Below are positions 3,900 to 35,747 of a stretch of DNA of 40,789 nt, in pieces. The translations under genes were made by a program, and so were the position numbers. This DNA is from Pusillimonas sp. TS35 (GTDB taxonomy: Bacteria; Pseudomonadota; Gammaproteobacteria; Burkholderiales; Burkholderiaceae_B): the NCBI RefSeq assembly GCF_009857885.1, contig NZ_WWER01000012.1, positions 1 through 40,789 of the forward strand, in the 5' to 3' direction. Positions within the stretch are counted from its first letter, which is position 1; each line of letters starts with the position of its first letter. The notes below the pieces were generated by a model. That model worked only from the letters and a program-made list of their open reading frames with translations. It was not told the DNA's origin and searched no databases.

Positions 3900-6800
3900 C
3901 TAGCGTAATCTCTGGTTGATTCTCGCTTCAGTATCCTCCCGAGCAGCTTCCCGCTCGTAGGTATCTGTCAGCTTCATAAGCAGTTCGGAAGCCACGTACG
4001 GCGATGACATCCGGAGCTGCTGGGCCCACTTTCTGTATTTGTCGGCCAGTTGGCGTTCCTGATCCCCGCCGGGACCTCGAGCATGAACCCCTCGTGAGTT
4101 GTACACGCCAGTATGTGCTCCGCGCATCATATCCTCGGACTGGAGATCTTCCATCACGGTTCTCACCGCCTCACAAGGCCAGCCGCCGTCCTTGCCGATC
4201 TGCGCCGAGGCAAGCAGTTCTCCAATTACGACATCAGCGATTCCGATGCGCGACAGCTCCGCGCAGGACTTGCGCACAGTTTCGGTCCACTTTGCCAGGC
4301 GCTCAGCATCAATGCTCCCTTGTTCGTCGCTTCCAGGGATTCTTTTCATTGCTTGTATGAGCTTGTATCCCCGTTCAGCCATTGGTCTGGCTTTTTCTGC
4401 TTCAACTCTGAATTCAGGAGGGTCCTCCGCTCGGTCACTGCGTTTGTACGTCCATACGATGGCTTGGACCAGTACTTCAGGGTGGTCCTCGATGTAGCGC
4501 TCGAGGTTCGGAATTGCGGACTTGGCACTCCGGTCCCATCCGCGGTCAAGCACTTCTAGATACGCGAATTCAAGGCCGGCCTTCTGTTCGAGTGACAGTT
4601 CGGAAGTGTTGTTGATGCATTCGAAGGCCCTTTGGACGTGGTAGTGTTCAAGCAGGTATTCGCCCGCCTTGTCGTCGCCGTCCTGTGCCATGACCGTGAG
4701 AAGTTGGAAGAGCGTGTGGACCGCCAGCTTTTCGGGGTGATACTTCGCGAGTGCAAACGCTGCGCGTGGTCGCCTGGCCTTCATGAGCATGTCGACCGCC
4801 TTGGCGATCTCCGCAGGGGAGTCCCGCATCCAGCCGGGAACGACCTCCTTCCAGTACCGCGTTTCAACCTCCTCTCCATATGAGGAGACCAGCGACCAAG
4901 TGCCTTCGCCGAAGGGCGCGAGCGCCAGGAAGCGGGTCGCGTTGTCGGGACCAATCGCTGTAATGGCAGAGCTTAAGAATGCTTCGCGTTTTTGGTCGTT
5001 GGGCATCACGCCTAAAGCGCCTTGGATCAGCCATTCCGATGCTCGGGCCGCAGACTCGCTTTCGCTCCTTTTCTGAAAGGCTTGGGTCACGAGGGCGAGC
5101 AGCTCTTCCTCGTCCAGCACTCGCTCGGCCACAAGGGCGCCGATGATTCCCGATGCTCCGCTACGGATTGCCGTATCGAGCAAGCCGGCGACGCCATACT
5201 GCCCGTGGATTTCTTTCAGCGCATCGGCCCGCTGCTTCCGGATCCGCGCCTCGCGCTCTTCATAGTCAATATTTTCTAGGTCTTCGAGCTCGTCGGCAGA
5301 CTCTTCGATCCAAGTCTCCTTGAAAAGCCACGCGTGCTTGTCGAGGAGATTGCTCGGTTCAAGCGCGGCATGGATGTGCTTTGCAGCAGCCGCTACACGG
5401 GATTGCTTGCTGCTTTTCCTCGCGCGCAGAGTTGCGCGACGGGACAACGTCGAGACTCGAATTTTCTCGCGTAACGCAATCTTGTCGCTGTCGCTTGCGG
5501 TCTTCGCCCATGCCTCGACCAGCGCCCATACGCGATCCTGATCAGCATCCGCCAGGTCGTGGAGGCGGTCGATTAGGTCGGACAGCATCGACACCGAGTA
5601 GCGTGGCTGCGATAAGGCTAGCTCTATCATTTTGCCCGCGAACTCTAATATCGGCCCCCACGTCGGAAACGGCTCACCGTGGCCGTATCCGTCCGGGCGC
5701 CAAGTCGGCTTGTGGCTGTAGTCCCCGACTTGATGGTGGTTGCCGAATTGCGCGACGCAAAGCGTCCAGGCGACATCCGGGAACCTGTTGAACAGGACTT
5801 TTACCAGCTCCAGGCGCTCGTCATTATTGGCTGCGGTCTGGGGCATCCACGATCGGAATATCGCTGCCAGCGAATGCGCCGGTTTGTTGACCCAGTTGTC
5901 GTTGATCTCTATCTGCGCGAGACGTGCGAGAATCATCACCGTACGAGGAAGCGTCTCCGGATTCCATGCGAGCCCTTCCAACGCCCAGAGCAGTCCAGTG
6001 CGGCTGGGACTGCCGAATATGCCGGACCCAGCGGGACGAAGGAGGCCGAAAACTGCGGGACTGCTCGTTTTCAGGTCGCGCTCGATGATCGAGAGAAATT
6101 CGGTCGGCGCCGCTTCAGCGTAGAGGGGCAGGTCGCGGTCGTTGGCTTCGAGGGTGCGCGTGGTGAGGGGATCGCTAAGTAGGTCGCGCACTACCAGGGC
6201 CGCCTCGACCTCCGTATCTATCCCCAAGCGTGCCTTGAAAAGGCCCACGCCGTGAACGGCTAGGAGTACGAGCGTTTCCGAAATGCCCTGACGGAACGCT
6301 GGAGAAAATTCCCGAGTCTTGCCGTGAATGGACGCGGCCCATCGCTGGTCTTCGGCGAGATCAAGAGAGGGATCATCCTCGCCCAGCACCATCCGAGCGA
6401 CGTCGAAATACCGCTTCAGGTCATCGCGGGTCACGTAGCGAGCAATGGCGTAGAGAAGGTCGATCTTCGAGACGACCCCGCGATATGTCCCGATGGACCA
6501 AAGCGGTGAGTCGTTCAGTTGGATCAGGCGTTGGAAGTCCTTTTCCAGTGCTTCGTACGCGCGGTCGCCTGCCAGCAGGGACAGTCCTGCCATGTCGGTT
6601 TCGTTGAGCGCGTGCCACGCGCCTACCAGCATGAAGGCGATTAGGTTCTCCGGGGCCTGTTGCTGTGTCGCCCAAAGTGGCATTCGTACGGCCTCGACGG
6701 TCGCGAGCCGGCGGCGCAGGACGGTCAGCGAGCGTCCCGACTCGTTTGCTAGGCTCTTGATCTCATCCCGGTTCTTGCCAATGCCTTTAAGCGCGGAATC

Positions 6801-8018
6801 GAATGTTTCGAAACTGACGGGTTCGAGAACGATATCCGGCTCTGCGTTGACGGAGTTCCTTGGGTAAACCACGATGGAGTGCAATTGTTCAGCGTACGGC
6901 GCGAGTTCAAGTTCGACTTCGCGCGAGTGCACTACTGGAATGAACGGCCTCGTCCCGCCTGCAAGTTTCGGTAGGACACCAGCTTTATCGAAAACCAGGA
7001 TCTGGTACCGATAAGGTTCCAGTTCGGCACTTCCTTCGGGGCCAAAGCACTGGGCAACAAAGGCCAGCGCTTCGTCGGTGGAGTCCGCTGCGACCACGAT
7101 TGGACTTTTGGGCCCCTTCGCGAGGCGGGAAGCGAGCTTGCGCTTCGCGTCCTCGATGGCCGAACTGAACAGCGAGCCGGGCAGCGGTGGAGTTGCCACG
7201 TTCGCCCAGTCTGTCCAGCACTTGTCGAGCGAGCGGACGCTCTGCGTCGGGGATCCTGTCTCGTTGGCAAACCATACTTGGCCGGGCAGAGACTGCTCCA
7301 CCCACTGCTCAAGGTCGCTGGAGTCATAGGCCCGAACGTCTTTCCAGGAACCTTCTTTCTTCTTTTCAGTAACCCAAGCGTTTTTGCCAGCCCATCTGCG
7401 AGGAGTGACGAAAACGAATTCCATCGATGCCCTGTCATTTGCATCAGTTGCAGCTACGCTTTTCTTGTAATCTTTGTCCGCCTTCGTCTTGGGATCCTCG
7501 TTGGTGCCAAACTCCCAACCCGAGTGGCCAGCCGGCACCCAAGCAGTTCCCTCGTTCGCCACGATTCGACCGTCCCAGCCGGCACGCTGGGAGTCGTCGT
7601 TACCCGGGAAGTCGACTTCCGTGAGTCCGCTCCCTGTCGAATGGACCAAGGTCCTCAGGAATACCGCGAACCTGCTGCGAGCGACGATGTTGTGCGAAGC
7701 CCAACTCTCTATGTCGTTGGATTTGATTGCTAGGAACGGGGGGACATACGCTCTCGCGTTCGTCGGGATGCTTTTCTGTTTAGCCTTGAAGGCGTCGTAC
7801 TGAGCCTGCATTTCGAGTAGATCTTTCCTGGGGAATCCGAATGCCTTCTCGATGCGAGTCGCCATATCTGCAGTGAGGGACGCTTTCCCGTTAAGCAGGT
7901 TGGAAAGTGCCGGACGTCCGACGCCAATAAGCTCGGCGGCTTTAGTCACGGACATCTTCGCCGGGAAAATCTCTGCCTTGACGCGTTCGCCAGGATGACG
8001 GACTTCGCTGGTGTCCAT
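3900..8018 (-). CDS. Giant protein: HigA-type HTH fused to a possible nuclease domain and a long helical-repeat region
   Basis: 1372 residues from the ATG at 8018, chosen because GGAAG lies just upstream and because a longer frame to 8090 would run into the promoter. Residues 8-75 match HigA antidotes: HPGERVKAEIF, then an XRE helix-turn-helix with LSNLLNGKASLTADMATRIEKAFG. Residues about 115-255 hold GWDGR (147-151), VPAGHSGWEFGT (161-172) and a strand FVFVTPRRW (201-209), an acidic layout like PD-(D/E)xK (Mrr-like) endonucleases; this is inference. Around 305-460 is a fold resembling an NTPase core, but I see no Walker A. The remainder to the C-terminus looks like alpha-helical repeats, with a charged segment near 905-935. 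No partner toxin gene is adjacent. The architecture suggests a large, self-regulated defence sensor-effector. Confidence 0.7.
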   Translation of the reverse strand: MDTSEVRHPGERVKAEIFPAKMSVTKAAELIGVGRPALSNLLNGKASLTADMATRIEKAFGFPRKDLLEMQAQYDAFKAKQKSIPTNARAYVPPFLAIKSNDIESWASHNIVARSRFAVFLRTLVHSTGSGLTEVDFPGNDDSQRAGWDGRIVANEGTAWVPAGHSGWEFGTNEDPKTKADKDYKKSVAATDANDRASMEFVFVTPRRWAGKNAWVTEKKKEGSWKDVRAYDSSDLEQWVEQSLPGQVWFANETGSPTQSVRSLDKCWTDWANVATPPLPGSLFSSAIEDAKRKLASRLAKGPKSPIVVAADSTDEALAFVAQCFGPEGSAELEPYRYQILVFDKAGVLPKLAGGTRPFIPVVHSREVELELAPYAEQLHSIVVYPRNSVNAEPDIVLEPVSFETFDSALKGIGKNRDEIKSLANESGRSLTVLRRRLATVEAVRMPLWATQQQAPENLIAFMLVGAWHALNETDMAGLSLLAGDRAYEALEKDFQRLIQLNDSPLWSIGTYRGVVSKIDLLYAIARYVTRDDLKRYFDVARMVLGEDDPSLDLAEDQRWAASIHGKTREFSPAFRQGISETLVLLAVHGVGLFKARLGIDTEVEAALVVRDLLSDPLTTRTLEANDRDLPLYAEAAPTEFLSIIERDLKTSSPAVFGLLRPAGSGIFGSPSRTGLLWALEGLAWNPETLPRTVMILARLAQIEINDNWVNKPAHSLAAIFRSWMPQTAANNDERLELVKVLFNRFPDVAWTLCVAQFGNHHQVGDYSHKPTWRPDGYGHGEPFPTWGPILEFAGKMIELALSQPRYSVSMLSDLIDRLHDLADADQDRVWALVEAWAKTASDSDKIALREKIRVSTLSRRATLRARKSSKQSRVAAAAKHIHAALEPSNLLDKHAWLFKETWIEESADELEDLENIDYEEREARIRKQRADALKEIHGQYGVAGLLDTAIRSGASGIIGALVAERVLDEEELLALVTQAFQKRSESESAARASEWLIQGALGVMPNDQKREAFLSSAITAIGPDNATRFLALAPFGEGTWSLVSSYGEEVETRYWKEVVPGWMRDSPAEIAKAVDMLMKARRPRAAFALAKYHPEKLAVHTLFQLLTVMAQDGDDKAGEYLLEHYHVQRAFECINNTSELSLEQKAGLEFAYLEVLDRGWDRSAKSAIPNLERYIEDHPEVLVQAIVWTYKRSDRAEDPPEFRVEAEKARPMAERGYKLIQAMKRIPGSDEQGSIDAERLAKWTETVRKSCAELSRIGIADVVIGELLASAQIGKDGGWPCEAVRTVMEDLQSEDMMRGAHTGVYNSRGVHARGPGGDQERQLADKYRKWAQQLRMSSPYVASELLMKLTDTYEREAAREDTEARINQRLR

Positions 8019-8061
8019 ATGCTTCCAATCGCTAACTGTTGGCTGTGGATCGATGGCAGCG

Positions 8062-8093
8062 ACTATAGTGTATGGTGTAGCGCGACACAATAC
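8062..8093 (-). promoter_or_regulatory. Promoter and palindromic operator of the HigA-fusion gene
   Basis: On the minus strand TTGTGT (8090-8085) and TATAGT (8067-8062) are spaced by 17 bases, a good sigma70 promoter starting near 8055, about 37 bases before the ATG. The inverted repeat GTATGGTGT (8070-8078) / ACACAATAC (8085-8093), 8 of 9 matched, covers the -35 box and spacer. HigA-type proteins repress their own promoters through such sites, so autoregulation by the fused HTH is likely. Confidence 0.6.
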
Positions 8094-9839: not shown

Positions 9840-10963
9840 ACGAATCGCAAAACCAGGTCGCCAACCTGGACACACACGCCAGCCATCGGCGCGTCTTGTC
9901 CGGGCTCGCCACCTGGACAAAATGCGCAAAGTCACCGACGCAGCAGGCGCCACCTGCTGCGGAACCGCTGAAGCCGCGTGCCTCTAACAGGGCTGGCGCG
10001 GCTACGAAGGGCGCTGGGGGTGGGAACCACCTCCTTCGACCCAATCCATGGCCTGCGCCGCAACGTGCAGGCCAGCAGTCTCCACGACAAGGAGGGGCGA
10101 CTACGAAACGGGCCTGGGTAGGAAATGACCCAGTGACCCTGACAGTTTGGGAAAGTCGGTGAAAGCCCGACCCTCGGGGCCTAGCGAAAGTGGGCGACGA
10201 GTGCAACACCTGGAGGCTGAGGGCGTCAGTGATGGCGTCAGGCATGCGGGAGAAATCTAGGCATGCTGGCACCTATCGAAAGATGGGGCCGCTGGATAGC
10301 TCAATCAGGTAAAGGCACCGTTCAGGTGCTGTGTTGAGGCATAGGAAGGCAGGGCCGCAGTCGCGGTAAGCAAGCAGCGTTGAAGCGCATCGGCAGTACC
10401 GCATCCGTTATGGAACCTTGGGAGCGAGAAACCCTGGAAACGGGGGTAGGGTCAGAGACCTAGATAAATCCGATGTGGCCGAGCTGGCTGTCGTTCGATG
10501 CCGTAGTACTGACTGTCTAAGTAGGGAAGGTCTCGGCAGATCGTGGGGGTGGCACCCTGCGGAATTATCTGCCAAGACTGGGAGATGGCTTGAGTAGTGC
10601 CGCCGCGCGAGCGGTGGGCAGACCATGGGGGCAGACTTGCTGGATGTTCCTATCGGCGAAAGAGCCAAGCGGTAACTGGTGACTTGATAGCGTGTTTTGT
10701 GAAACCGCCCCTTGGCCGGGGCATTAACTTTGCGAGGAGGGTTGCGGAGACGAAAACTCGGTTGGCCCCGGGTGATCGAACCGATCTGAAGAGGTATTGG
10801 CTTTATCTGTGGTACTTAGGTGTTCATTTTGACCGGTACCGGACATTCCGGCTGTTCCGTGGCATTGCCACACAGATGGCGTCTACTGACCCATCACACA
10901 GGGCTCTACTTCTTATTGAGGCATCCCAATACCTCGGTCATTTTTTTGACCGAGGTATTTTTT
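9840..10963 (+). ncRNA. Candidate giant structured non-coding RNA (about 1.1 kb)
   Basis: This stretch lacks convincing protein genes but is dense with perfect stems. Pairs include 9853-9858/9864-9869, 9896-9901/9915-9920, 9940-9947/9953-9960, 9972-9978/9997-10003, 10049-10056/10067-10074, 10114-10119/10128-10133, 10155-10159/10167-10171, 10179-10183/10191-10195, 10239-10247/10261-10268 (one bulge), 10315-10319/10325-10329, 10707-10711/10718-10722 and 10774-10778/10782-10786. Two hairpins close with GAAA tetraloops: CCTATC-GAAA-GATGGG (10272-10287) and CCCTG-GAAA-CGGGG (10432-10445). Further GCGAAAG segments occur at 10184 and 10657. GNRA loops on the plus strand fix the orientation. The loop CGCCA recurs at 9859 and 9948 and within the 9896-9920 hairpin. 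An intrinsic terminator closes the unit at 10928-10963. Size and style recall GOLLD/ROOL-type ornate RNAs of mobile elements; membership is not shown. The 5' end is uncertain. Confidence 0.6.
10928..10963 (+). terminator. Strong intrinsic terminator of the candidate giant RNA
   Basis: AATACCTCGGTCA (10928-10940) pairs perfectly over 13 bases with TGACCGAGGTATT (10947-10959), followed by a T-run to about 10963. It ends plus-strand transcription after the structured region; no protein gene precedes it on this strand. Confidence 0.85.
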
Positions 10964-11653
10964 CTTGTGCGCACAAAACAATGTCTCGGCGCTCCAGCGC
11001 CTTGTCCGTCAGCGTCAAGATTCAGCTCGACGGTTCCTTGCGTGCAGGACTTGGCTCTTGTGGGCGCTGCTCGTATCGGAAATAGTGCCAAGCTGAGCCC
11101 ATCCCTAAGCCGCCAAAGACGACGAGCAAGATCGTAACAGCGAGAATAGCGCTGAAGGTCATTTCACAGTCCTTTAATGTTGTTTACTACATTCCGCTTG
11201 GAACTCAAGCATCCATAAAAAATGCGAGACAGCTACCGCGATGCCGACGAACTTTCAAGGTGTCTCGATAAACGAGAGTCGAGAGTCAACAAATAACTGT
11301 TAATGATTATGACTCATAAACACTAGGTTCTTATGGCAGTCGGCCAGGTCGCGCCACGACCTGATGCTGCCTCTTCACAATCTCTCATGGCCAAGCCATG
11401 CCCGTCCACCGCCCCTGAACGGTGCCGGAGCACGCTCCATCTTTCGATAGGATCTGATCGCCACCGGAGGGCTGGCCGAGCAAAAAAAGCAAATGTGCCT
11501 GAACACCCCTCTCTGCCCTTAACCGGGCAGGGAGGCAAGGCCCTTCTTTCACCGAAAGACGGCTAGGCTTGCGCTTTGTTTGCACCACTCCCAGTCGCCT
11601 GATAACAGCCCTTCCGACAGCAGGCGCCCAAGACACGGGTACCCCGCTAAAAT
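10964..11653. other. Intergenic region before the restriction-modification operon
   Basis: No gene recognised in about 690 bases. A hairpin CTCTGCCC/GGGCAGGG lies near 11511-11532 without a T-run. A run of A at about 11481-11487 and AT-rich sequence near 11180-11330 may hold promoter elements, but none is clear. Confidence 0.4.
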
Positions 11654-12343
11654 ATGACAAATTCAACACACTTCCTTACAGAGAACATGCGTCTAGTCAA
11701 GTCAAAACAACGGGTAGCCGACCACGGGGAGGTCTTTACTCCCGCCTGGATGGTCGAAGCCATGCTTGACTTGGTTAAAGGCGAAACCGAGCGCATCGAT
11801 TCCCGATTCTTGGAACCCGCCTGCGGCAGCGGTAACTTTCTCGTGCAAATATTACGGCGCAAGCTGGCCGCCGTCGAAATCAAGTTCAGTAAGTCTGACT
11901 TCGAGAAACACCAATATGCGCTGCTGGCGTTGATGTGCATCTACGGTATCGAACTGCTGCCCGACAACATCGCTGAATGCCGTGAGAACGTGCTGGAAAT
12001 CCTCGCGGAGTATCTGAGGCTGGACGAATCGACCGACCTATACCGCGCAGCCAGCTATGTACTGTCGCAGAACATAGTCCACGGCGATGCACTTACCATG
12101 CGCAACAGCAATAACCAGCCCATCACCTTTGCCGAATGGGGCTACCTCGGCAAGGGAAAATTCCAGCGTCGTGACTTCCGTTTTGATGTCCTGACAGGCT
12201 CGTCGGCGTTCAGTGCTGAAGGCTCCCTCTTCGCCCACCTCGGCAAGCACGAAATCTTCACCCCTATTAAGACCTACCCGCCGATGACAATTGGCGACAT
12301 CGCGGCCCTTTCGCGTGGTCAATCATCGAAGGAGCCTGTGTGA
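11654..12343 (+). CDS. N-6 adenine DNA methylase-like subunit lacking an NPPY motif
   Basis: 229 residues with the front half of a gamma-type adenine methyltransferase: GEVFTP (25-30), the SAM-binding motif I FLEPACGSGNF (52-62), and VHGDALTM later. Where FDVIxxNPPY is expected the sequence reads FDVLTGSSAF, so the catalytic motif IV is degenerate. It probably cannot methylate alone. The next gene has the reverse pattern (intact NPPY, unusual motif I), so the two may work as a complementary pair or this one may bind SAM or DNA as an accessory subunit. The stop overlaps the next start (GTGTGA). First gene of a three-gene RM operon. Confidence 0.75.
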   Translation: MTNSTHFLTENMRLVKSKQRVADHGEVFTPAWMVEAMLDLVKGETERIDSRFLEPACGSGNFLVQILRRKLAAVEIKFSKSDFEKHQYALLALMCIYGIELLPDNIAECRENVLEILAEYLRLDESTDLYRAASYVLSQNIVHGDALTMRNSNNQPITFAEWGYLGKGKFQRRDFRFDVLTGSSAFSAEGSLFAHLGKHEIFTPIKTYPPMTIGDIAALSRGQSSKEPV

Positions 12344-13929
12344 GCGAGACGCAAGCCAGCTTTACCCTACGTGGGCGCAACCCAGATGCGTTGACTTGCA
12401 TCGCCAATCTCTCGAATGACGAGGTGTTCACGCCACCGACGTTCGCCAGCAAAATGCTGGACAGCATTGCCGCAGCATGGGCAACAGACCACGATGGCGC
12501 GAACATCTGGGAAAACCCGGCCGTGAAGTTTCTTGACCCGGTTGCCAAAAGTGGCGTGTTTCTACGCGAAATTACCACACGACTGTCGAAAGGGCTGGCA
12601 GCCACGATGCCAGACTTGCAATCGCGCGTCGATCACATCCTCACCAAGCAAGTGTTCGGCATAGGTATCACGCATCTGACAAGCCTCTTGGCGCGACGTA
12701 GTGTTTACTGCAGTAAATACGCTAACGGCGCACACTCCATAGCTAAATCGTTCGCCAGCGACGCAGGGAATATCTGGTTTAGGCGCACGGAGCATACATG
12801 GAACGACACCAAGTGTGTTTACTGCGGTGCACCGAAGTCCATTTTTGACCGCGCGGAAGGCCTAGAAACCCATGCCTATGCGTTCATTCATACCAACGAC
12901 ATCAAAACTCGGCTTGCCGAGATGTTTGGGGGAAATATGCAGTTCGACGTCATCATCGGTAATCCACCCTATCAGATGACCGGTGGTGCTGGAGGGACTA
13001 GTGACTCATCCATTTATCACCTGTTCGTTCAGCAGGCCATGCAGTTGGAGCCACGCTATCTCAGCATGGTAATGCCGTCACGGTGGCTGGCTGGCGGCAG
13101 GGGGATGGACGAATTTCGCCAGACAATGCTGACTGGGCGGCATATGCGCGAGTTGGTTGATTACCCCGCGGCAAGCGACGTGTTCCCAGGAGTGGAAATT
13201 AAGGCCGGAGTCTGTTACTTCCTATGGGATGCCAGTCACGACGGCGACTGCAACGTGACAACGGTACGTGGCACAGAAACTATTGGGCCGCAAACACGCA
13301 ATCTAGGCGAGTACGACGTATTTGTCCGCGATGGACGAGCCATCTCTATCTTGCACAAAGTACTGAAGCAAGAGGAACCATCCATCAATACAATCCTGAC
13401 ACGAGACACAACATTTGGGTTGGCATCGAACTTTGATGGTTTTCACGAACAGCAACAACAGGGCGACATCCCGCTGTACTACATTCGGAGGATGAAGCGC
13501 CATGTTGGTTATGTTAGTAAAAGCACCATACACAAGAACGAGCATCTGATAGACAAGTGGAAGGTACTTGTTCCAAAAGCATACAACGGCGGCGATTCCG
13601 TCCCGCATCAGATTCTCGGAAAGCCCCAAATCGCGCCATCGCCGTCCGTATGCACACAATCATTCATGCTTTTCCATGCTGACACAAAAAAGGCAGCTAA
13701 AAGCATTCTGTCATACTATACAACCCGATTTTTTCGGTTCCTTGTTTCGCAGCGGAAAATCACCCAGGACGCGTTGTATTCAACTTATTCGTGGGTTCCT
13801 GTGCAGACCTGGAATAAAACATGGACTGACACGGCACTCTATGAGAAATACGGCATAACAAAGGACGAACAGGCTTATATAGAATCGCAGGTCAAGCCTA
13901 TGATTCTTGGTGATACCGATGATGAATAA
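12340..13929 (+). CDS. Eco57I-like N-6 adenine DNA methyltransferase subunit
   Basis: 529 residues. The GTG start at 12340 overlaps the previous stop and has AAGGAG five bases upstream. Motif X-like EVFTPP is at 28-33, a motif I variant FLDPVAKSGVFLREI at 64-78 (the usual DPxxGxG reads DPVAKSG), and the catalytic NPPY at 208-211 in FDVIIGNPPYQ. A CVYC pair (159-162) may bind zinc with an upstream cysteine. The C-terminal half should hold target recognition and helicase contact. It would methylate adenine in the system's target and protect self DNA from the nuclease-helicase encoded next. Confidence 0.85.
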   Translation: MSETQASFTLRGRNPDALTCIANLSNDEVFTPPTFASKMLDSIAAAWATDHDGANIWENPAVKFLDPVAKSGVFLREITTRLSKGLAATMPDLQSRVDHILTKQVFGIGITHLTSLLARRSVYCSKYANGAHSIAKSFASDAGNIWFRRTEHTWNDTKCVYCGAPKSIFDRAEGLETHAYAFIHTNDIKTRLAEMFGGNMQFDVIIGNPPYQMTGGAGGTSDSSIYHLFVQQAMQLEPRYLSMVMPSRWLAGGRGMDEFRQTMLTGRHMRELVDYPAASDVFPGVEIKAGVCYFLWDASHDGDCNVTTVRGTETIGPQTRNLGEYDVFVRDGRAISILHKVLKQEEPSINTILTRDTTFGLASNFDGFHEQQQQGDIPLYYIRRMKRHVGYVSKSTIHKNEHLIDKWKVLVPKAYNGGDSVPHQILGKPQIAPSPSVCTQSFMLFHADTKKAAKSILSYYTTRFFRFLVSQRKITQDALYSTYSWVPVQTWNKTWTDTALYEKYGITKDEQAYIESQVKPMILGDTDDE

Positions 13930-16459
13930 ACCCATCGACGAGATTCTCGCGCCCAAGCCAACTGCCAGACCACGTATCTACGCCTATTCCATCTCTGATA
14001 CAGCCCACAAGGGTCTGCTCAAGGTTGGTCAGACCACGCGCAATGTCAAGCAGCGTATCGCCGAGCAGCTCAAGACCGCCGCCATCAAAAACTACACCAT
14101 CGAACTCGACGAACCCGCAGAACGCGATGATGGCAGCCTTTTCAGCGACCACCAAGTACGCGCCGCACTCGTTCGCAAAGGCCATGAAAACACCGAACTA
14201 GAATGGGTGCGATGCACAGTCAAGGATATTCGAACTGTCCTGACCGGGTTGCGTACCGGCCAACAATTCAGCGGCACACACCACGAAACCTTCCCCATGC
14301 GTCGGGAGCAGGCAGAGGCCGTCGATAAGACCTACGACTACTACCACTCAATCTGGGCCGAGAACAGGAATGCGGTCCCACGATTCCTATGGAATGCGAA
14401 GATGCGTTTCGGCAAGACCTTCACCAGCTACCAGTTGGCGAAGAGGCTCAAAGCGAAGCGTATATTGGTCGTGACCTTCAAACCTGCCGTGGAAGATGCC
14501 TGGCAAGCCGACTTGGAAAGCCATGCTGACTTCGACGGCTGGCAGTATCGATCCAACCATACGGGAGTCGATCCGACTCAGGCTGACAAGAACAAACCTT
14601 TGGTCTACTTCGGCTCCTTCCAAGATTTGTTGGGCCGTGATGCAACAGGCAACATAAAGCCCAAGAACGAATGGCTGCATACTGTGAATTGGGACTTGGT
14701 CGTCTTTGACGAGTACCACTTCGGCGCATGGCGCGAGACGGCCAAAGAACTCTTCGAAGGCGAAGAAGAATCCGTCGCCAGGAAAGAAGCCAAACTGGAG
14801 TACGCGGGCGGCCTGGAAGATGTGAACGAAGACCTGGGCGTACTCTCGGAAAAGGAAGCCGACTTTCTGCCCATCACGACCAAAGCGTACCTCTACCTAT
14901 CGGGAACACCTTTCAAAGCACTCGCCACGGGGGAGTTCATCGAAGAACAGATTTTCAACTGGACGTACACCGACGAACAGCGCGCCAAGGAAGAATTCGC
15001 CGCACATCACCCTGACAAGCGCAATCCATATGCTGCCCTGCCACAGCTGCGCCTGCTCACGTATCAGATGCCCGATGAACTGCTGGCTATTGCCAGCGGT
15101 GGTGAGTTCGATGAATTCGATCTCAACGAGTTCTTCTCAGCAACAGGCACGGGCAAGACCGCGCAGTTCAAGCACAAAAGCGATGTGCAGAAATGGCTGG
15201 ATATCATCCGTGGCCAATATGCGCCCAAGGCAGTAGAAGGTCTCAAGACCGGCTCGCGCCCACCGTTCCCATATTCGGACAATCGACTGCTGCCCTATTT
15301 GCAGCATTCGTTTTGGTTCCTGCCCAACGTGTCATCCTGCCATGCAATGGCAAACCTGCTGACAGAGAGGCACAATACATTCTGGCGCGGCTATAAGGTG
15401 CTCTTGGCGGCAGGGGCACAGGCTGGCATTGGTCTGGAAGCCTTGCCACCCGTACGTGCAGCCATCGGCAGCGGTTTTGATACCAAAACCATTACCCTGT
15501 CATGTGGCAAGCTCACCACGGGCGTAACCGTGGCGCAATGGTCGTCCATCCTGATGCTGCGAAATCTGAAGTCGCCCGAGACGTACTTCCAGGCAGCGTT
15601 CCGTGTGCAATCACCGTGGTCGATCAAGAACCCCAACGGCGACAACCCAAACGAAGAAGAAATCCTCAAGCCCGTGTGCTTTGTCTTTGACTTTGCGCCC
15701 ACCCGAGCATTGCGGCAACTTTCCGAATACGGTATTGGTCTCTCGCCCAACGAATCGAACCCCGAAAACGCCGTCAAAGAGTTGGTGTCGTTTCTTCCCG
15801 TTCTGGCCTATGACGGCGCAAACATGACGCAGATCGACGCTGGCGGCATTCTCGATATTGCGATGGCTGGCACATCGGCCACCCTGCTTGCCCGCAAGTG
15901 GGAAAGCGCGCTGCTCGTGAATGTGGACAACGACACACTGCGCCGCATCATGAACAACCCCGAGGCGATGGCCGCCGTGGAACGCATCGAAGGCTGGCGG
16001 TCGCTGGGCGACAATGTGCTGGAGACCATCATCAACAAGAGCGAGAAGGTCAAAGACCTCAAGAACAGGGCGAAGGAGCGCGACCTCACGGACAAGCAGA
16101 AAAAGCAACTTACCGATGAAGAGAAGGAATACAAATCCAAACGCAAGATGGTGCAAGAAAAACTGATCAAGTTCGCCACGCGCATCCCGGCCTTCATGTA
16201 CCTGACCGACTTCCGAGAGAACACGCTACGCGATGTCATCACGAAGCTGGAACCAGACCTATTCCTCGCCGTTACGGGCCTGACCGTGCAGGATTTCCAC
16301 CTATTGGTGCAACTCAAGGTGTTCAACACCGAACAGATGAACCAAGCCGTGTTCGCGTTCCGGCGCTATGAGGATGCTGGCCTTGCTTACACAGGCATTG
16401 AATCGCACCCTGGCCTAACCCATTACGGCCTGTATGACACTGTGGTGGCAAAAGAGTAG
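13919..16459 (+). CDS. Restriction subunit: GIY-YIG/T5orf172-type nuclease fused to a DEAD-like helicase
   Basis: 846 residues from the ATG at 13919, overlapping the methylase gene by 11 bases. The N-terminal YAYSISD...LLKVGQTTR (21-41) is the GIY-YIG/T5orf172 pattern with the downstream Arg. The helicase core starts at about 125: Walker A as AKMRFGKT (160-167), strand RILVVTF (181-187), motif II DEYH (264-267), and YLSGTP as motif III. A Lys/Glu-rich coiled coil lies near residues 700-750. The arrangement of two methylase-type subunits plus one nuclease-helicase is a multi-subunit RM system: the helicase would translocate from unmodified sites and the GIY-YIG domain cut. The RM class name is uncertain. 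Confidence 0.8.
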   Translation: MMNKPIDEILAPKPTARPRIYAYSISDTAHKGLLKVGQTTRNVKQRIAEQLKTAAIKNYTIELDEPAERDDGSLFSDHQVRAALVRKGHENTELEWVRCTVKDIRTVLTGLRTGQQFSGTHHETFPMRREQAEAVDKTYDYYHSIWAENRNAVPRFLWNAKMRFGKTFTSYQLAKRLKAKRILVVTFKPAVEDAWQADLESHADFDGWQYRSNHTGVDPTQADKNKPLVYFGSFQDLLGRDATGNIKPKNEWLHTVNWDLVVFDEYHFGAWRETAKELFEGEEESVARKEAKLEYAGGLEDVNEDLGVLSEKEADFLPITTKAYLYLSGTPFKALATGEFIEEQIFNWTYTDEQRAKEEFAAHHPDKRNPYAALPQLRLLTYQMPDELLAIASGGEFDEFDLNEFFSATGTGKTAQFKHKSDVQKWLDIIRGQYAPKAVEGLKTGSRPPFPYSDNRLLPYLQHSFWFLPNVSSCHAMANLLTERHNTFWRGYKVLLAAGAQAGIGLEALPPVRAAIGSGFDTKTITLSCGKLTTGVTVAQWSSILMLRNLKSPETYFQAAFRVQSPWSIKNPNGDNPNEEEILKPVCFVFDFAPTRALRQLSEYGIGLSPNESNPENAVKELVSFLPVLAYDGANMTQIDAGGILDIAMAGTSATLLARKWESALLVNVDNDTLRRIMNNPEAMAAVERIEGWRSLGDNVLETIINKSEKVKDLKNRAKERDLTDKQKKQLTDEEKEYKSKRKMVQEKLIKFATRIPAFMYLTDFRENTLRDVITKLEPDLFLAVTGLTVQDFHLLVQLKVFNTEQMNQAVFAFRRYEDAGLAYTGIESHPGLTHYGLYDTVVAKE

Positions 16460-18909: not shown

Positions 18910-19468
18910 GCTTTTGCTCTTCGGCTCACTACAAGATCCAAACCCTCGACCAGCGGGGCCTCGAAAAAATATCTTAAATTACCCTCAAAAATTTAGACTT
19001 CGCGCTATACGGTTGTGCAGCACCACTACAAACCGACGGCCGAACCGAAATGGCGCCCGACTCGGGGTACAGCAGACAACGACAGTCTCCGTGCCACCAG
19101 TGGACTCATAAAAGCCCGCAAGACCTGCAGGGCTATACCGCTGCCGCTTCGAAGGACGCTCACACGCACCGGCTTCGAAGGGATACGTCTGACCGGGGGA
19201 AAGCACTGAAAAACAGACGCAGGGCGGCGAAGTTAGCACCCTGATTGCGCAAGGCTGACGGGCGACGCCGATCCCATACCGCAATACGGGAGGGGCGAGG
19301 CTGAGTGGAAGGCTTATCTCATTAGATTGGGAGGGCTGGGCTCTGCCTCCCCCACCCGCAATTGCTTTGCAGGAGTATCCGTTCTGGCAGAGCCTAGGAA
19401 ATTTCAGTAGTACTCAGCGCAAGCCATTCCCAAAAAACAAGTATCTACGCAGCGAGAATTGGGGTGGC
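18910..19468. other. Intergenic region, no gene recognised
   Basis: About 560 GC-rich bases between the sRNA terminator and the end of the DUF499 gene. A minus-strand frame of 99 codons (18985-19284), rich in Cys, Arg and Pro, has no visible domain. GGGAGG (19329) can pair with CCTCCC (19345), without a T-run. It could hold a decayed RNA or IS fragment. Confidence 0.35.
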
Positions 19469-22333
19469 TCAATCCTCCTCAAACTCCGCAGGTTTGAATT
19501 TCAGCACACTGCAATTTTCCTTGATGGTTCGCTGCAACACCTCAGTAAACCCGTCGGGCTTGCGAGCCTCTATTTCGACCGAAATAGTTACCTCTACGCC
19601 CAACTGGGAGGTGAAGTGTTGAACCACCTCATCCATGATGTTCGCAAAGTCCATCTTAGCTCTAACAGGATCCAGGCTAACTGTGCCGTAGAAGCGCTTC
19701 CTGAGGGCTACGGAAGTCTCACCGCTGGATTCTGTGTCCTCGCCATCGCTACGCGAGGATCCCTGCCCCGCTCTTGCACCACTTCCTTGGCTTGAGCGCC
19801 CATCAGAAGCCGGGTCCTGCTCACCATCGATGCCACCCTCAGGCAAGGAACCAGTCGGACGCAGCGGCTCATGCAGCTTGCGTGTATAGGCAAGCGCCAC
19901 CTCGCGTTCAATTAGCAACGAAGACTCATTGAGCTCAACGACCGCACCTCGCCCGAAAACAAACCCCAGGTAGCGATCCACCTCCTTGCCTGAAGCAAAG
20001 CCGAAGAAGTCTTCAGTATCCAGGCCTCTAGCAATGGCATCACGAAATACCTGATCGTTCGCCAACCTGGGCAGATAGAGATAGTGGCAACTGTCTTGCC
20101 ATACCTTCAAAGCGCCGACATCAGAAGCACCTCCTTTGAAGTACCAGTCGGCCAGAACTTTACGCAAATGAATTGGAGACCATTCGTAAACGACCCACTC
20201 TTCTTCGCGCAACCGGTCTTCAATGGTTTGAACCAAATTAGTAGCTGTAGGAGAAACTGCCACCACTTCCCAACCTAGCTCCGGACGACCTTGCACGAAG
20301 CTCTCAACCGGCGCCAGCATCCACTTCCAGGTTTCTCGAATCAATCCGTTCAACGACTGTTCTGCGATATCACGATTGCGCTTAGACTGGTTCAGATGCG
20401 ACAAGTCCTGGTTCAACGTACCACCCTCGATATCGGACGCTATTGATCGCCATGCCAGATAAATTCTGCCCTGCTCCTTTAAGCGGCTTACCACATCAAA
20501 ATCCGGTGCCAGAAAAATTAGACGGTTTTGCTTTTGTCGGGGCTGATCGCCACGGTTACGCAAAATCCTCTCGGCTTCAGTAAACGCCTGGTTGGTTTCG
20601 TTGCGGCTGTAGCCTGCACTAACCGGCAACACAACCAAACGAGGACCAGCGCCATAGTCATCAGGCACATCAACTGAAGGGGTGAAGACGTGGATACCAC
20701 CGAAATGATGCCCACGGCCGAATACCCTCGCTACCCGGTCTTTAAGCAGAGGGATCAGATCATCGCGCTCACTGATACTCTGAATGCGACTTTCCATTTC
20801 ACGGCGCAAGTTGGGCTTCGTATCCAGCCAATAACGATCCTGCTCTGCGTATAGATGGTGCAAGCGGTCACGCAAGCGCTTGAGCACATCCTCGAATACA
20901 CCGATCGTTTGCCCAGGCTGCACTGTGCCCAGCAGAATCCGTTCAGTCTGAATGCCACGAATCATCTGCGACTGCGTTGAAGGCGCGCTGCCTAAGAAAA
21001 TGGCACGTGCGGCCCGCCGCGCGGCTTGAACCCCGCCAAATAATGTATGGTGACCATCAATATCCGCTGGAACTGAACGTGGACCATCCACCTCTTTCTC
21101 AATCACTGGCTCCCACCCCTGAGGGAGATAGTGAATGGACTTATTGCGCACGTTGACGTCGTCCAGCGGCAGGGAGCCGGGCATAATCAGCGCATCACGG
21201 TTGTCTGAATTCCACAACCTGTGGATAACTGTGGCCATGTACTGAAGCACACCCCGTGTACGCTGGAACTTGTCTAATGTAGACCAATCCTCGTACAGGC
21301 GGTCGAACACCTCTGGATGTATGGGATAACACCCACATAGGCGCTCATAGTATTCATTTGACTGGGTTTCTACTGGAAACTTCTCGGCATGCTTGCGGTA
21401 AAAATCGGAAAACTGGCGGCATATGCCCTCAACCTCGCCCCGCTCGCCCGAACTCTCAAACAAGCGGCGGCGCACAATCTCGAACGCTTCGCGCGAGCCC
21501 ACTGGCTTCCAAACTGACTCTACTCGAGCAAAGTATTTTTCCAGCGAATTCAGTGCGCGTTGGCCCATCGTGCCACCAACTTCCAGCTCAGACTCGGGCA
21601 AAGATGCAAGCAAGATAGCGTTGGGAACCGCCTTCAAGGCTTCGGTAAGCGCCTGGATGAAGCTAATGTTGCTATCAAACGTGCCGCCCTTATACTGCTT
21701 GCCTAGCTCCAGTTGGCGCACGTAGGCCACCAGCTCGTCAATCAGAATCACGCATGGTGCTGCACGGGTTAGCAGCTCCTGCAACGTTTCTTTTCCAGGT
21801 GAAGTGCCATCGACATCGCTCTCGGCCACCATGCCATATCCCTCTTCACCCAGCAACCGCCAAGCTAACTCGCCCCAAAGCGTATTGACTGTGATTGAGC
21901 CATAGGTGCTGGGCTGGCTGGGCGACTGCCGAATGCCATCAAGCACTGCAATACGCGCGCGTGGCAAATTGGTAATACCAGCCTCATCCAAAATGGTCGG
22001 GATCCCCAAGAGCTTGTCCGCACTCACCTCGCGGTTGCCCATGTGGAAAACTGCCAGCATGGTGTGCGTTTTACCGCCCCCAAAAGCCGTTTGCAGTTGA
22101 ATTACAGGGTCACCACCCTGGCCTGCTAACCGTTGAGCCACCGAGATGAGTAACAGTCGCATGCCCTCGGTGATGTACGTGCGCGAAAAGAACTTTTCGG
22201 CATCCTGGTACTCTGCTGTAGCTGTACCATTAGCCACTTGAGTGATGTCAGCCGCAAATTCGGACTGCTTGAACGAGCCTTCCAAAACGTCTTTGTGCGG
22301 GCGGGCGATTTCACGCCAAGGCTTCAATGACAT
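19469..22333 (-). CDS. DUF499-family AAA-like ATPase of a phage-defence operon
   Basis: 954 residues from the ATG at 22333, chosen for AGGAG seven bases upstream. Walker A is [10 protein letters not shown] (81-90) and Walker B lies in [12 protein letters not shown]. This is the DUF499 pattern seen beside DUF1156 methyltransferases in anti-phage operons. Near residues 845-880 is a low-complexity Ser/Gly/Asp linker ([18 protein letters not shown]), and the C-terminal domain after it may bind partners. The ATPase presumably couples recognition to DNA or nucleoprotein remodelling; mechanism is inferred. Last gene of the five-gene minus-strand operon, 48 bases after the membrane-protein gene. Confidence 0.85.
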
Positions 22334-22381
22334 ACCTACTCCTAAAATTTCCATTTACGCGTGACAATAAAGGCGCTTCCC

Positions 22382-23158
22382 TTAGCATTTCAGCCTCATC
22401 TTTCCCTGAGCAACAAGCGTTTGGTGTGCATCAAACGCATTTGACACAGCGTTATTAACCAAACTTACATCCTCGCTTACCCAATCGGGCCACTCCCAGT
22501 CGCTAATGTGGTCCTGGGGAACTACAGATTGCAGACCAGCTCGTGTCGGCGAGGACTTCAGGGATAAAAGTTTAGAAAACTCGCGCGCCTCGTTCCAAAA
22601 TACGCGCTTTGCGTCCTCCAGATCGGAAGCATGAAATCGATATTCCGGCGCGCCCCATTTGTCAATAAAATCATCCAAAGAGGATAGTTCGTCCAAATGA
22701 AAACTATGGCCAAAATCATGTTCACTCAATAATCGAATAGACCTAGAGCTAGATGGCAAAAGAACTAAGAGATCATTAAATAATGACAGGTCGCTATTCC
22801 GCTCCCAGTCGTCAACTTGATTTTTCAGCACCCGATTGCGCTCGGATATCCATATGAAAAACAGATTATGAAGCAACGCAAAAGCCACCAGTAGTGTGCC
22901 GATCCAATATGGCATCTGCCCTCTGTCGACATATATCTGAGCTAATTGATCCTGAATATCTAACCCTAACCAGCCCGCGAGCCATTTAATTAGGAGGTAA
23001 TGAAGAACGGGCGGTGCAATAAGCACTGCTGCTGCGAGCCACAGAACTCTACGAGCCAATCTGTTACTTGCATCCGGGAAAAGCCAATGCAAGACCCACG
23101 ATGCTGATCTCTTCAGCCACGACTCGCCCGACTCATTAAGTGATGATGGCCTTTGCAT
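22382..23158 (-). CDS. Two-pass membrane protein in the DUF499/DUF1156 operon
   Basis: 258 residues from the ATG at 23158, which follows the DUF1156 stop as TAAgATG (coupled translation); a longer frame would overlap that gene. There are two hydrophobic segments: one in LWLAAAVLIAPPVLHYLLI and one in WIGTLLVAFALLHNLFFIW. They are joined by a short loop and followed by a soluble C-terminal domain of about 150 residues with Asp/Glu-rich helices. The family is not recognised. Its position inside a DNA-acting defence operon is unusual and would place part of the system at the inner membrane, perhaps as a sensor of injection or an effector. Confidence 0.7.
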   Translation of the reverse strand: MQRPSSLNESGESWLKRSASWVLHWLFPDASNRLARRVLWLAAAVLIAPPVLHYLLIKWLAGWLGLDIQDQLAQIYVDRGQMPYWIGTLLVAFALLHNLFFIWISERNRVLKNQVDDWERNSDLSLFNDLLVLLPSSSRSIRLLSEHDFGHSFHLDELSSLDDFIDKWGAPEYRFHASDLEDAKRVFWNEAREFSKLLSLKSSPTRAGLQSVVPQDHISDWEWPDWVSEDVSLVNNAVSNAFDAHQTLVAQGKMRLKC

Positions 23159-23159
23159 C

Positions 23160-26060
23160 TTAAAAATCCAACCCGACCTGGCTTCCTTTATGCCCAAGGT
23201 CATGTGAGGCCGAAACGATCGCGTGCCATGAGCCAATTAGTTCGTTATAGGCGCGCGCCTCCTCTGCCCATTTCTTACGCTCGCACAAGGTATATAAATG
23301 ATAGGCAAGCTGGCGGACAGCTTCACCTTTTTCAGGCATTTTGGCCAGCAACTCGCCCGCAGCCGACTCTCCCTGACGGTTCAGACGGCGAATCATCTGG
23401 TGGCAGGCTTCCCATATGGGAATATTGGAGTCTTTGACAGGATCCCAATCAGCCTCGTACTCTTTCCAACGCAGCAGCCGGACTTTACCCCCGCCAGACT
23501 CGACCACACCGGCGGCCCTAACCCTGTCGACGTTGGTCCCCTTGGCACGGGCCAGTGTGTCAGCCTCGCCAAAGAGGCCACTTACCCAACTATATTGCTC
23601 AAACCAGCTTGAGCAAAACTGGGTTTCAGCATCGAAACTGCCTGAATCCGGGCTCAGATAATCAGTAACTGCGCGATTAATCAGAACTAAGGCATCATGC
23701 ACGCTCATCCGCGAGCCGTCCTGGTTCAGGACCGCTTCACATTTGGAATAAATAGCCATTCCAGGGCCGATGGCTGCCTGAGCCAGGTCCACCGGAGCGA
23801 TTGGGGTTTGCCCAGTTTCACCACCGATCATGGTTTCCAAGGCTTCTGGCATTTCTTCTCGTAGCTGACGCTGGAAGTCGCGGCGAGAGATGGTCTCAGC
23901 ATTGGCTTGACGTTTGCGGCATACAAGGACAATGGATGAAGCTAAGGCATTAGTACCAGAGCCAATCATGCGGTTGGCCATCTCCGTGCGCATTGGCCAA
24001 GTGCCGTCTATGGAAAAACCTGCCTGAATCACCGCCTCGAGAAAGGTCACCCAACCCGTGCTGGTGGTGCTACCTTCTTTGGTCTCTGATTGCTTGAAAG
24101 CATAGTAAATGGATACGGGGAAAGCCGGATGAGCATGTAGAGCGAGGTTATGAATGGCCTTGGTCATTCCAGTCATAAAGAAGGCCTCGGCATTCTCTTT
24201 ACTTCCATGCCGATAGGGAGTAGCTACAAGCTCTTCCGCCTTGGGAACGGCCATCGTACTAAACAATGATGGGTAGATACTCCGCAAGGACTTACGCATC
24301 CAAACATAAAAAAAATCGGATAGGTCCGCATAACCGATATTGTCGTAGTAGGGGGGGTCTGTTGAGACTAGCTTCCCTAAGCTCATTCCTTGTACTGCCG
24401 CATCTTCTTGCGAAACAAAACCAGCAGGCCGCCCCGGGAGTAAAGCCAGCACCTTAGCCGCCCACTCAATCCCACTTTTCGCATTTCCTGCCGAATCAGA
24501 AAATGGATTAGTTTCTGCGTAATCCCAAGTCATCGGTATTGCTTGACGGCCAAAAGTGTTCCGGATTAACTCTTTACTTGAATGCCAAGAACATACAGTA
24601 GACCAATAGTCCACGGACTTATCCACGGCGAAACATAGATAGACGGCTACTGCCTCTCCGTACGCCGTTGCGCCAGCACCTCCCTGTGCTATCCCTAGCC
24701 CATCATCTTTAAAACCAGCGGCTTTCGCGTCGACGATCGCTTTCTCCCTAGCCTCCCCAACAAGATCCGAAAACGTGGTCAGCGCCACTAGTTGCCGACG
24801 AGAGAAGAGGTCACCATATCGAGTGAGGCCATAGAGTTGAGTGCGTATGTCTCGAGGATTGTGGTTAATCTCACTTTCTGGCTGCCACGGCGGGCTGGCA
24901 GAGGCAGCCAAACACTCGTCTTCTTTTGTGGGGGAGAGGTAAATTCGACCTGTTTTTCCCTCTACTACAACAGCCATAAGACGCTCTTTAAAAGTGCCCG
25001 CCTGACCTTGCTTTCTTATTTCCGCTACTGGAATTGGGGTCTCAGAAACTAAGCATAAAAAATTCCCTCCACGCCCGACCTTAGTGCCATCGTTAGCACT
25101 CGCTGGATATGGCCCAATTTTCACTTCAAATCTATACGTATCTCCCTCGACCACTGGATCTACATATGCCTCCTTACCTGCCTTACTCGACAGCACAAAG
25201 CTGGATACTAGCGGCACATCCACATGGCTGTATGCTGGATTGGGGCTTTTTACCGTTCGAGCCCACAACCAGGCAATGACGGTCAGCGATTCCCCTTCAT
25301 GTGCTTTAAGATCCGGACGCTCTTTCACCATTTTCTGGGTGATCGTCACCTTGGGGTATAGATTACCGATCCGCTTGAAGGCCTCTTCTCGCATCCACTG
25401 ACCATAGCGGCGTAGATCTTCAGCCAGGCCTCGAGCACCTGACCAGTCATCGGCATAACTCTCTGTATATTCCTCACCCTCGGGGAGTGGGCCTACCGGA
25501 GATCTGTCTGCAAACTTAGGCGGAATCTCGATCATCGCCTTGTTGATCATGACCGCCACAGGGTTAAGGTCTGAGGCATGACTCTCAAGCCCCAGGCGCT
25601 GAGCTTCCAACGGAATGGCTCCTCCGCCAGCAAATGGGTCATGAAAGGCCGGCAGCTTTTCAGGATTGAACAGTTCTGCCGCTTGCGGGTGGTTGCGATT
25701 CAGGTGGCAGGTTTCGCGCCAACTTTCCCAAATAGCTTGGCGAGCACGGTCCAACACCTCTTCATTATTGGTGTTTTCCCACTTCACCAATTCACGGATG
25801 ATCTGAAACAGTTTTTCCCGCTTGAGCTCGGCTTCCTTCTTGTTCACCCCATATCCCAGCTCACGCTGATAACCCGGGTCGTTGACCAACTGGGCGAATA
25901 GCACAGCGCGGGCAGCCGCCAGGGGCCGACGCGCCCACCATAAGTGCAATGTGCTGGGGTGGCCATGTCGAATAGACTTTTCACGTGCAGCACTAACGTT
26001 GATGTCATCCAGCGGCAAAGCTACTTCGATGAGTTTTTTGGGAGATTTAATCGCGGTCAT
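23160..26060 (-). CDS. DUF1156-domain DNA methyltransferase
   Basis: 966 residues. The N-terminal DUF1156 signature is clear: [20 protein letters not shown] (32-51). SAM-binding motif I is [17 protein letters not shown] (from 141), followed by SDLNPVAV, and the catalytic motif is DPPYYDN near residues 565-571, an adenine-type or N4-cytosine-type DPPY. The C-terminal part probably recognises the target. It should mark host DNA so that the helicase/ATPase machinery of the same operon spares it. It lies between the helicase gene (46-bp gap) and the membrane-protein gene (one base after the stop). Confidence 0.9.
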
Positions 26061-26106
26061 TACTTACGGTTGTCCTTATGCGGCCGGAGGGAAGCGCTGG
26101 TCAAAG

Positions 26107-29100: not shown

Positions 29101-29658
29101 CTTTTCACGGCTAAAGATATCGAACTGCACGCCAAATTTTTCCAGTAGCTCGTCTTGCCATTGCTCGGAGAGCCCCCCCGGTGACACGATCAGTACGCGC
29201 TTGGCATCAGCGCGCATAAGTAACTCTCGAATCAACAACCCTGCCATGATGGTTTTGCCTGCGCCGGGGTCGTCAGCTAACACGAAGCGCAGCGGTTGGC
29301 GCGGCAACATGGATTCATACACGGCCGAAATTTGGTGCGGCAGCGGCTCTACATTAGAAGTGTGCACCGCCATCATCGGATCGAAGAGCGCGGCCTGAGT
29401 AATACGCCAAGCCTCCAGCCCTAATTTGAAATCAGCCCCCGGCGCATCAAACGCCCACGGGCGTCCAGCCTGAGCCAATTCCAGACGGGCTTCATCGGAG
29501 CGAAACAACATCTGCTCGTTCAACTGCCCTTGGCTATCTTTGTAGTAAACCGTCAGGGCATTCTCACCAGCGGGTTCAATTTGTACGACGCGCACGACCT
29601 CATTGCCTTGAAGACCACGAATCTGCGCATCTTTCTTTATATCCTCTAGCTTGATCAT
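26107..29658 (-). CDS. SNF2-like DEAH helicase with C-terminal DUF3883
   Basis: 1183 residues. SF2 helicase motifs in order: Walker [10 protein letters not shown] (128-136), DEAH (229-232) in [20 protein letters not shown] as motif III, and [10 protein letters not shown] as motif VI, which is typical of SNF2/DISARM-type helicases such as DrmD. A coiled coil lies near residues 1030-1060. The C-terminal DUF3883 domain shows [10 protein letters not shown], whose E-x-K resembles a restriction-nuclease core and might give DNA cleavage or binding. The start overlaps the WYL gene stop as ATGA. Its likely role is translocation along unmodified foreign DNA within the defence complex. Confidence 0.9.
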
Positions 29659-30596: not shown

Positions 30597-30602
30597 GGGC
30601 AA

Positions 30603-35663: not shown

Positions 35664-35747
35664 AGGAACCACTCACTTGCGACCGACATACAGATATGAA
35701 CAATAGATCGTTCGGTGAAAATTGGCGATCAAGTCCTCTCTTTGCAA

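Follow-up and report, generated by a model that had tools for sequence, protein, structure and literature searches.

The window, which is the whole analyzed stretch of 40,789 nucleotides from Pusillimonas sp. TS35, contains a large structured RNA gene on the plus strand. It is oriented divergently from a gene for a 225-aa homologue of AcpG. The coordinates of both genes and of the individual RNA domains are listed in Table 1.

Table 1. Features of the RNA gene and its divergent neighbor (positions in the window).
Feature	Position	Strand	Remarks
acpG homologue, 225 aa	8997..9674	-	Divergent from the RNA gene; family HMM match to the pTT8 protein taken as AcpG
CP group II ribozyme gene (almost certain assignment)	9840..10963	+	5′ hairpins to terminator; covariation, domain order, pPNAP05 alignment
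P2-like hairpin	9942..9958	+	Helix 9942-9946 x 9954-9958; GCCA of the loop (9949-9952) is conserved and complementary to that of D2
Long-range helix, 5′ strand	9963..9968	+	Pairs with 10669-10674; covariation
Domain V	9971..10004	+	AGC triad 9972-9974, U-N bulge 9994-9995, tetraloop 9985-9988
Domain VI hairpin	10009..10042	+	Bulged branch-point A 10039; 3′ splice site after 10045
49-nt linker ("exons")	10046..10094	+	Predicted release as RNA circle; IBS1 10089-10094
Domain I	10095..10524	+	Largest domain; GGGCGAC 5′ splice-site motif at start; helices 10101-10104 x 10521-10524, 10141-10150 x 10509-10517
EBS1	10414..10419	+	IBS1 partner in relatives; two mismatches in window copy
Domain II	10529..10579	+	TGGC loop 10550-10553
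Domain III	10586..10667	+	Covarying helices
Long-range helix, 3′ strand	10669..10674	+	Pairs with 9963-9968
Intrinsic terminator	10928..10965	+	13-bp stem and T tail

The surroundings include a pair of St85-family retron effector and reverse transcriptase (293-2231). The regions 3900-8090, 11654-16459 and 19469-30602 form a probable defence island, in which a large protein with a HigA-like N-terminal part and methylase-type genes, including an Eco57I match, were found. Its long ORFs are methylase- and helicase-like by eye, and the family scans reached up to position 13929. The Rfam small RNA Betaproteobacteria-1 was identified at 19145-19263 (+) with 84.1 bits. A ParB-like protein, a serine recombinase (weak CcrB similarity) and a tyrosine-integrase-like ORF (by eye) at 33202-35672 and 39750-40694 make it probable that the contig belongs to an integrated element.

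For the analysis of the RNA structure, 77 relatives were aligned (89 extracted sequences minus 12 near-identical or short ones). A total of 59 column pairs covary at E<=0.05, and 55 of these are canonical in at least 70% of the sequences. The null consisted of 20 parsimony-permuted, tree-based alignments evaluated with an in-house R-scape-like script, not R-scape itself. The covariation confirms the large ornate RNA with perfect stems that the first-pass annotation had proposed; the stems are genuine and conservation acts on the RNA. In an alignment of 35 sequences with 24 covarying helices (3884 cells), G.T (G.U) was counted 538 times and A.C 52 times, so the plus-strand RNA is the conserved structured strand. 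For domains V and VI, 95.7% of 1174 cells pair compared to 38-47% with the partners slid (51 of 76 usable sequences, with the misaligned row L124 kept in). Both sides have changed in 21 of the 24 pairs, and none of 500 shuffles was as high on any of five measures. The covarying long-range helix spans 700 nt, and the folding of the region 9963-10674 gave a z-score of -3.97 against 60 shuffles.

Of the two GAAA-closed hairpins pointed out earlier, the first (10272-10287) has a covarying stem, 10272-10277 x 10282-10287, whereas significant covariation was absent for 10432-10445 in the alignment of 77 relatives. The repeated CGCCA was found at about 9859, 9907 and 9948, the last copy being inside the conserved GCCA loop. 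The RNA also has its own terminator as claimed (stem 10928-10959). Of 75 relatives, 14 have a terminator-like site, the fraction in shuffles being 0.01. The lack of a convincing protein gene was likewise borne out. The longest open stretch has a median of 91 codons in the 77 relatives and of 103 codons in their shuffles. In the window copy one open stretch reaches 138 codons, and two ORFs (130 and 162 aa) overlap with the RNA. Neither a conserved ORF nor an intron-encoded protein was seen within the RNA across these relatives, their open stretches being no longer than those of the shuffles.

A search against Rfam 15 gave no match above the gathering scores, and a permissive scan returned sub-threshold matches only, e.g., Spot 42 at E 0.23. 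This result would fit an RNA that is either non-permuted or of an entirely new class, such as GOLLD or ROOL, to which the RNA had been likened in the first-pass annotation. However, domains V and VI, the splice-site motifs and EBS1/IBS1 are present in permuted order, and a published member of the circularly permuted (CP) group II ribozymes is part of the alignment. A new class or a GOLLD/ROOL-type RNA is thereby refuted for practical purposes, and the annotation's statement that domain V is lacking was wrong, since it lies at the 5′ end.

The RNA is almost certainly a CP group II ribozyme paired with AcpG, a class already known as CP group II ribozymes or T-large RNA (Roth et al., 2021; PMC8637638). 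The assignment is based on the order D5-D6-linker-D1-D2-D3, the AGC triad, the U-N bulge, the bulged A and the boundary motifs, together with the EBS1/IBS1 pairing, the covariation, the presence of the pPNAP05 RNA in the alignment and AcpG as neighbor. D5 and D6 precede the helices of D1 to D3, the domains that could be delimited here; the published order is D5-D6-D1-D2-D3-D4 (PMC8637638). The RNA of P. naphthalenivorans pPNAP05 (L014 of the alignment) has a delimited linker of 32 nt, identical to the circle/linker length described for it (PMC8637638).

In the domain V hairpin, AGC lies at the base of a stem of eight or nine pairs, which is followed by a bulge of two nucleotides, a further five pairs and a loop of 4 nt. 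In the domain V/VI alignment (A5) the triad occupies columns 3-5 and the U-N bulge columns 26-27, with five pairs between triad and bulge. Although the A of the triad was described as apparently unpaired (PMC8637638), it faces a U in 43 of the 49 distinct rows. In domain VI, A10039 (column 72 of A5) is bulged between conserved pairs and followed by the CAAT motif. The boundary motifs CAAT and GGGCGAC thus occur in reverse order around the linker, 32 nt apart in pPNAP05; the linker itself is variable across relatives. Its positions -6 to -1 are canonical with 10419-10414 in 53, 56, 43, 57, 56 and 59 of 61 sequences, respectively, with clear covariation at position -3. Judged from this alignment, the two segments are the IBS1-EBS1 pairing, which is mismatched at 2 of 6 positions in the window copy. 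The GCCA loop of the P2-like hairpin and the TGGC loop of D2 are complementary and nearly invariant, hence uninformative by covariation; a pseudoknot between these loops has been described for CP group II ribozymes (PMC8637638).

Judging from the intact parts, the branch point A10039 would attack the 5′ splice site at 10094/10095, and the freed 3′ end would then attack the 3′ splice site at 10045/10046. The predicted products are a released 49-nt RNA circle and a T-shaped branched RNA. Branching and circle release have been published for relatives in vitro (PMC8637638).

In 200 genomes, the RNA was detected by blastn in 7, the window's own included, with matches from 94% full-length (one genome) down to single conserved blocks. 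The RNA was found in 16 records of the plasmid collection and, within 19 of 5426 E. coli genomes, on 20 plasmid records, of which 7 are three-kb plasmids and 13 are larger; this agrees with the earlier proposal of carriage on mobile elements. The 3-kb and a larger plasmid were co-resident in one E. coli genome, numbers too few to weigh. No carriage was found in the phage collection or in viral contigs. One core pattern identified 57 stretches in the genome collection and 0 in the viral collection, and all 57 match the RNA profile built earlier from 35 sequences. By title, most of them are from Alpha-, Beta- and Gammaproteobacteria, and a single one bears the label Mycobacterium. For pTT8, the RNA profile gave weak matches only, three of them collinear (E 0.03 to 0.8). 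The Thiothrix plasmid L055 carries two CP group II RNAs (17915-16778 and 33205-32262), which are about 94% alike, and one AcpG match. In Pandoraea pPO70-4 (L054, 20930-23121) the CP group II RNA is split into two matches by an IS256-family transposase gene.

In a two-sequence search, the family HMM of AcpG matched the 259-aa pTT8 protein with 74.6 bits and an E-value of 8.1e-25. The pTT8 ORF 6164-6943 was taken as TTHC007 by length and place, as the record carries newer tags; TTHC007 is the published AcpG (PMC8637638). An AcpG-like ORF was found in 45 of the 57 stretches identified by the RNA pattern; in the other 12, several of them short, it was undetected. Among 88 rows with RNA and AcpG (duplicates included), 76 are divergent, 7 on the same strand and 5 otherwise arranged. 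AcpG without detected RNA occurs in L019, L057, L079 and L080, the first two being Acetobacteraceae plasmids in which the RNA profile found nothing. In the order, 31 of 399 genomes encode AcpG, the window's own one included.

The 225-aa homologue matched no family of Pfam, NCBIfam or PHROGs, and no relaxase family or fold was among the matches of AcpG in sequence-profile and structure-model comparisons. Profile similarity to MOBC-like proteins was undetectable, and the PD-(D/E)XK-type motif of the MOBC relaxase was absent. For the model of the window protein, proteins of group II introns were the top three PDB matches, the best with E 0.025 and a probability of 0.94. This likeness to a maturase fold was not reproduced with another AcpG model, for which only Prp8 appeared, at rank 6 with E 0.84.

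In all five distinct fetched plasmid loci with AcpG and a coupling protein (T4CP), AcpG and the RNA adjoin the coupling-protein gene. Four of these are complete plasmids with a type IV secretion system (T4SS), i.e., E. coli pEc631_3, P. aromaticivorans pBN5, G. diazotrophicus pGDIPal5I and Pandoraea pPO70-4; the fifth is a 13.7-kb stretch of P. terrae pPT70. The coupling protein is VirD4-like in all five. It is located on the AcpG side in pEc631_3 and on the RNA side in the other four. By profile test, no MOBC-like gene was found at these loci (pPT70 being a partial stretch). Pfam scans of 29 of the larger proteins encoded on the four complete plasmids (10 of L016, 8 of L050, 2 of L054 and 9 of L053) gave no match to a relaxase family, an absence that is to be read as one of profile matches.

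Eight further coupling-protein matches were chosen from the search results and their surroundings fetched, one of which was pPT70. All seven other loci with related T4CPs have a MOBC-like gene and no AcpG (partial stretches). This gene is divergent, encodes 237-290 aa with a PD...ExE...K pattern and is followed by a gap of about 0.86-1.1 kb up to the coupling protein. Within the fetched stretches, 12 of 12 loci have either AcpG or the MOBC-like gene, never both. The Sulfuriferula plasmid L052 contains AcpG, RNA and MOBC-like gene together, with no coupling-protein match. Three of the seven MOBC-like plasmids were typed as MOBC by MOB-suite. The label "non-mobilizable" was rejected as proof of a missing relaxase, since four plasmids with the MOBC-like gene bear it as well. 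The repeats GCGTCCAGC were also discarded as an oriT mark of MOBC loci, single copies being present in some CP plasmids and in the window.

In a tree of 19 T4CP sequences (midpoint rooting; one deep node at 0.239), CP and MOBC kinds are intermixed at least twice. The E. coli CP sequence groups with Providencia MOBC (0.988) and is joined to the Klebsiella MOBC clade (0.998), and Eleftheria MOBC is sister to the Burkholderiales CP sequences (0.999). Relatives of these T4CPs are widespread on plasmids with ordinary relaxase typing and not confined to CP plasmids; among 190 records matching the pBN5 protein, MOB-suite classified 131 as mobilizable, 55 as non-mobilizable and 4 as conjugative. Within the 57 genome stretches, a T4CP was found in seven, always on the 3′ side of the RNA with AcpG opposite; the other 50 stretches (at most 8 kb) have none. 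The location of CP group II RNA and AcpG at the coupling protein and the swap with MOBC are new relative to the available text of Roth et al. (PMC8637638).

An E. coli plasmid of 3,064 bp and a 30-kb T4SS plasmid have 719 bp in common (95.7%), which lie within the RNA match of the latter. AcpG was not found on the small plasmid, which has kept the RNA. Its 150-aa gene is 73% identical to a 152-aa gene located 3′ of the RNA in the 30-kb plasmid. Relatives of the latter directly follow the T4CP gene in a Providencia plasmid and are one gene further from it in two Klebsiella MOBC plasmids. This gene content fits a mobilisable satellite that would need the RNA gene in cis. The 30-kb plasmid (L016) contains three copies of a repeat of about 180 bp, at 4266-4440, 19235-19412 and 20091-20268, and the 3-kb plasmid contains one.

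The biological role of CP group II ribozymes was called unknown by Roth et al. (2021; PMC8637638). No functional follow-up was among the matches listed from open PMC papers, and of the listed matches to the class names only Roth et al. (2021) uses them in this sense. We propose, with the balance about even, that RNA and AcpG form a DNA-processing module for conjugative mobilisation replacing relaxase and oriT. The proposal is made because both adjoin the coupling-protein gene in the five loci with a MOBC-like gene instead in the seven others, because the T4CP tree interleaves the two kinds and because Pfam found no relaxase family in the 29 scanned proteins of the four plasmids. It is also made because the T4CP in the genome stretches always lies on the 3′ side of the RNA, and because the 3-kb plasmid keeps the RNA and a homologue of the gene downstream of T4CP in MOBC plasmids. 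The module would be self-transmissible beside a coupling protein and T4SS and mobilised in trans where it is alone, as in the window. On another contig of the host genome, coupling-protein and VirB4 domains are encoded; mobilisation in trans is therefore possible.

Several results count against this role. Most genome stretches show no T4CP, AcpG and RNA each occur in places where the other was undetected, and L052 has both AcpG and a MOBC-like gene. The IS256 insertion in the Pandoraea RNA lowered our estimate to the even balance given above. Profile similarity between AcpG and MOBC is absent, T4CP relatives are common on plasmids with ordinary relaxase typing, the pTT8 RNA matches are weak and IBS1/EBS1 of the window is imperfect. 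Furthermore, Roth et al. detected the transcript in cells but no processed form of it, and pTT8 was still able to replicate when most of the RNA was missing (PMC8637638). The pair could instead be a passenger or stabiliser (copy control, addiction or nucleic-acid defence) that is near T4CP genes by chance or at a hot spot. Its presence on various replicons and chromosomal contigs, mostly with no T4CP nearby, and the likeness of the window to a defence island speak for such a passenger, which we consider possible but not probable, as the mutually exclusive swap with MOBC-like genes recurs in 12 loci and the gene content of the 3-kb plasmid argues against it as well.

Roth et al. noted that back-splicing in reverse would cut a DNA strand (PMC8637638). 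Held by AcpG, the branched RNA would run the second splicing step backwards on a DNA strand, so that the 3′ end of the RNA becomes joined to a 5′ end of the DNA and a 3′-OH is left free. The RNA would stay joined to the transferred strand, and the coupling protein would export the complex via the T4SS. Classical relaxases yield comparable products, i.e., a joined DNA 5′ end and a free 3′-OH. That CP group II ribozymes act together with AcpG as RNA-based relaxases, nicking plasmid DNA by reverse splicing, nevertheless appears doubtful. The circle junction was rejected as DNA target: 19 elements were tried, a linker was obtained in 17, and in these no DNA copy stood out save a 13-nt match inside a window ORF.

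AcpG might also be a new protein relaxase, with oriT in the DNA of the RNA gene and the ribozyme as RNA helper or regulator only. AcpG is divergent and in the place of the MOBC gene, and mobilisation of SGI1 is reported to require a small RNA that SGI1 itself encodes (PMC9299015). This explanation is unlikely, given that no relaxase family or fold was among the AcpG matches, that the 3-kb plasmid has the RNA without AcpG and that the helices and EBS1/IBS1 are conserved at the RNA level.

The relaxases covered in the available text of PMC12857230 are all proteins of unrelated enzyme families, and an RNA relaxase would, if true, be the first non-protein one compared to these. With CP group II RNA and AcpG in the place of a relaxase, their purpose becomes testable by deletion. 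The module could explain plasmids with T4SS and coupling protein but no recognisable relaxase, and sequence-based mobility prediction would, if this is true, change.

In size and ornateness the RNA is similar to GOLLD, ROOL and OLE, which to our knowledge have no group II core. GOLLD is phage-linked, whereas the core pattern of the window RNA had no match in viral contigs. With canonical group II introns it has the domain V/VI architecture and the EBS1-IBS1 logic in common, but the order is permuted and no reverse transcriptase ORF lies within. The AGC triad, U-N bulge, bulged A, boundary motifs, linker and AcpG neighbor are the same as in the published CP group II ribozymes, from which the window copy differs by its 49-nt linker and the imperfect IBS1/EBS1 (PMC8637638). 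Compared to the MOBC relaxase modules (pAD1 TraX, CloDF13 MobC; PMC12857230), the pair takes the same place by the coupling-protein gene and the T4CPs are related, whereas AcpG has no profile similarity to the fetched MOBC-like proteins and the RNA gene occupies the intergenic region.
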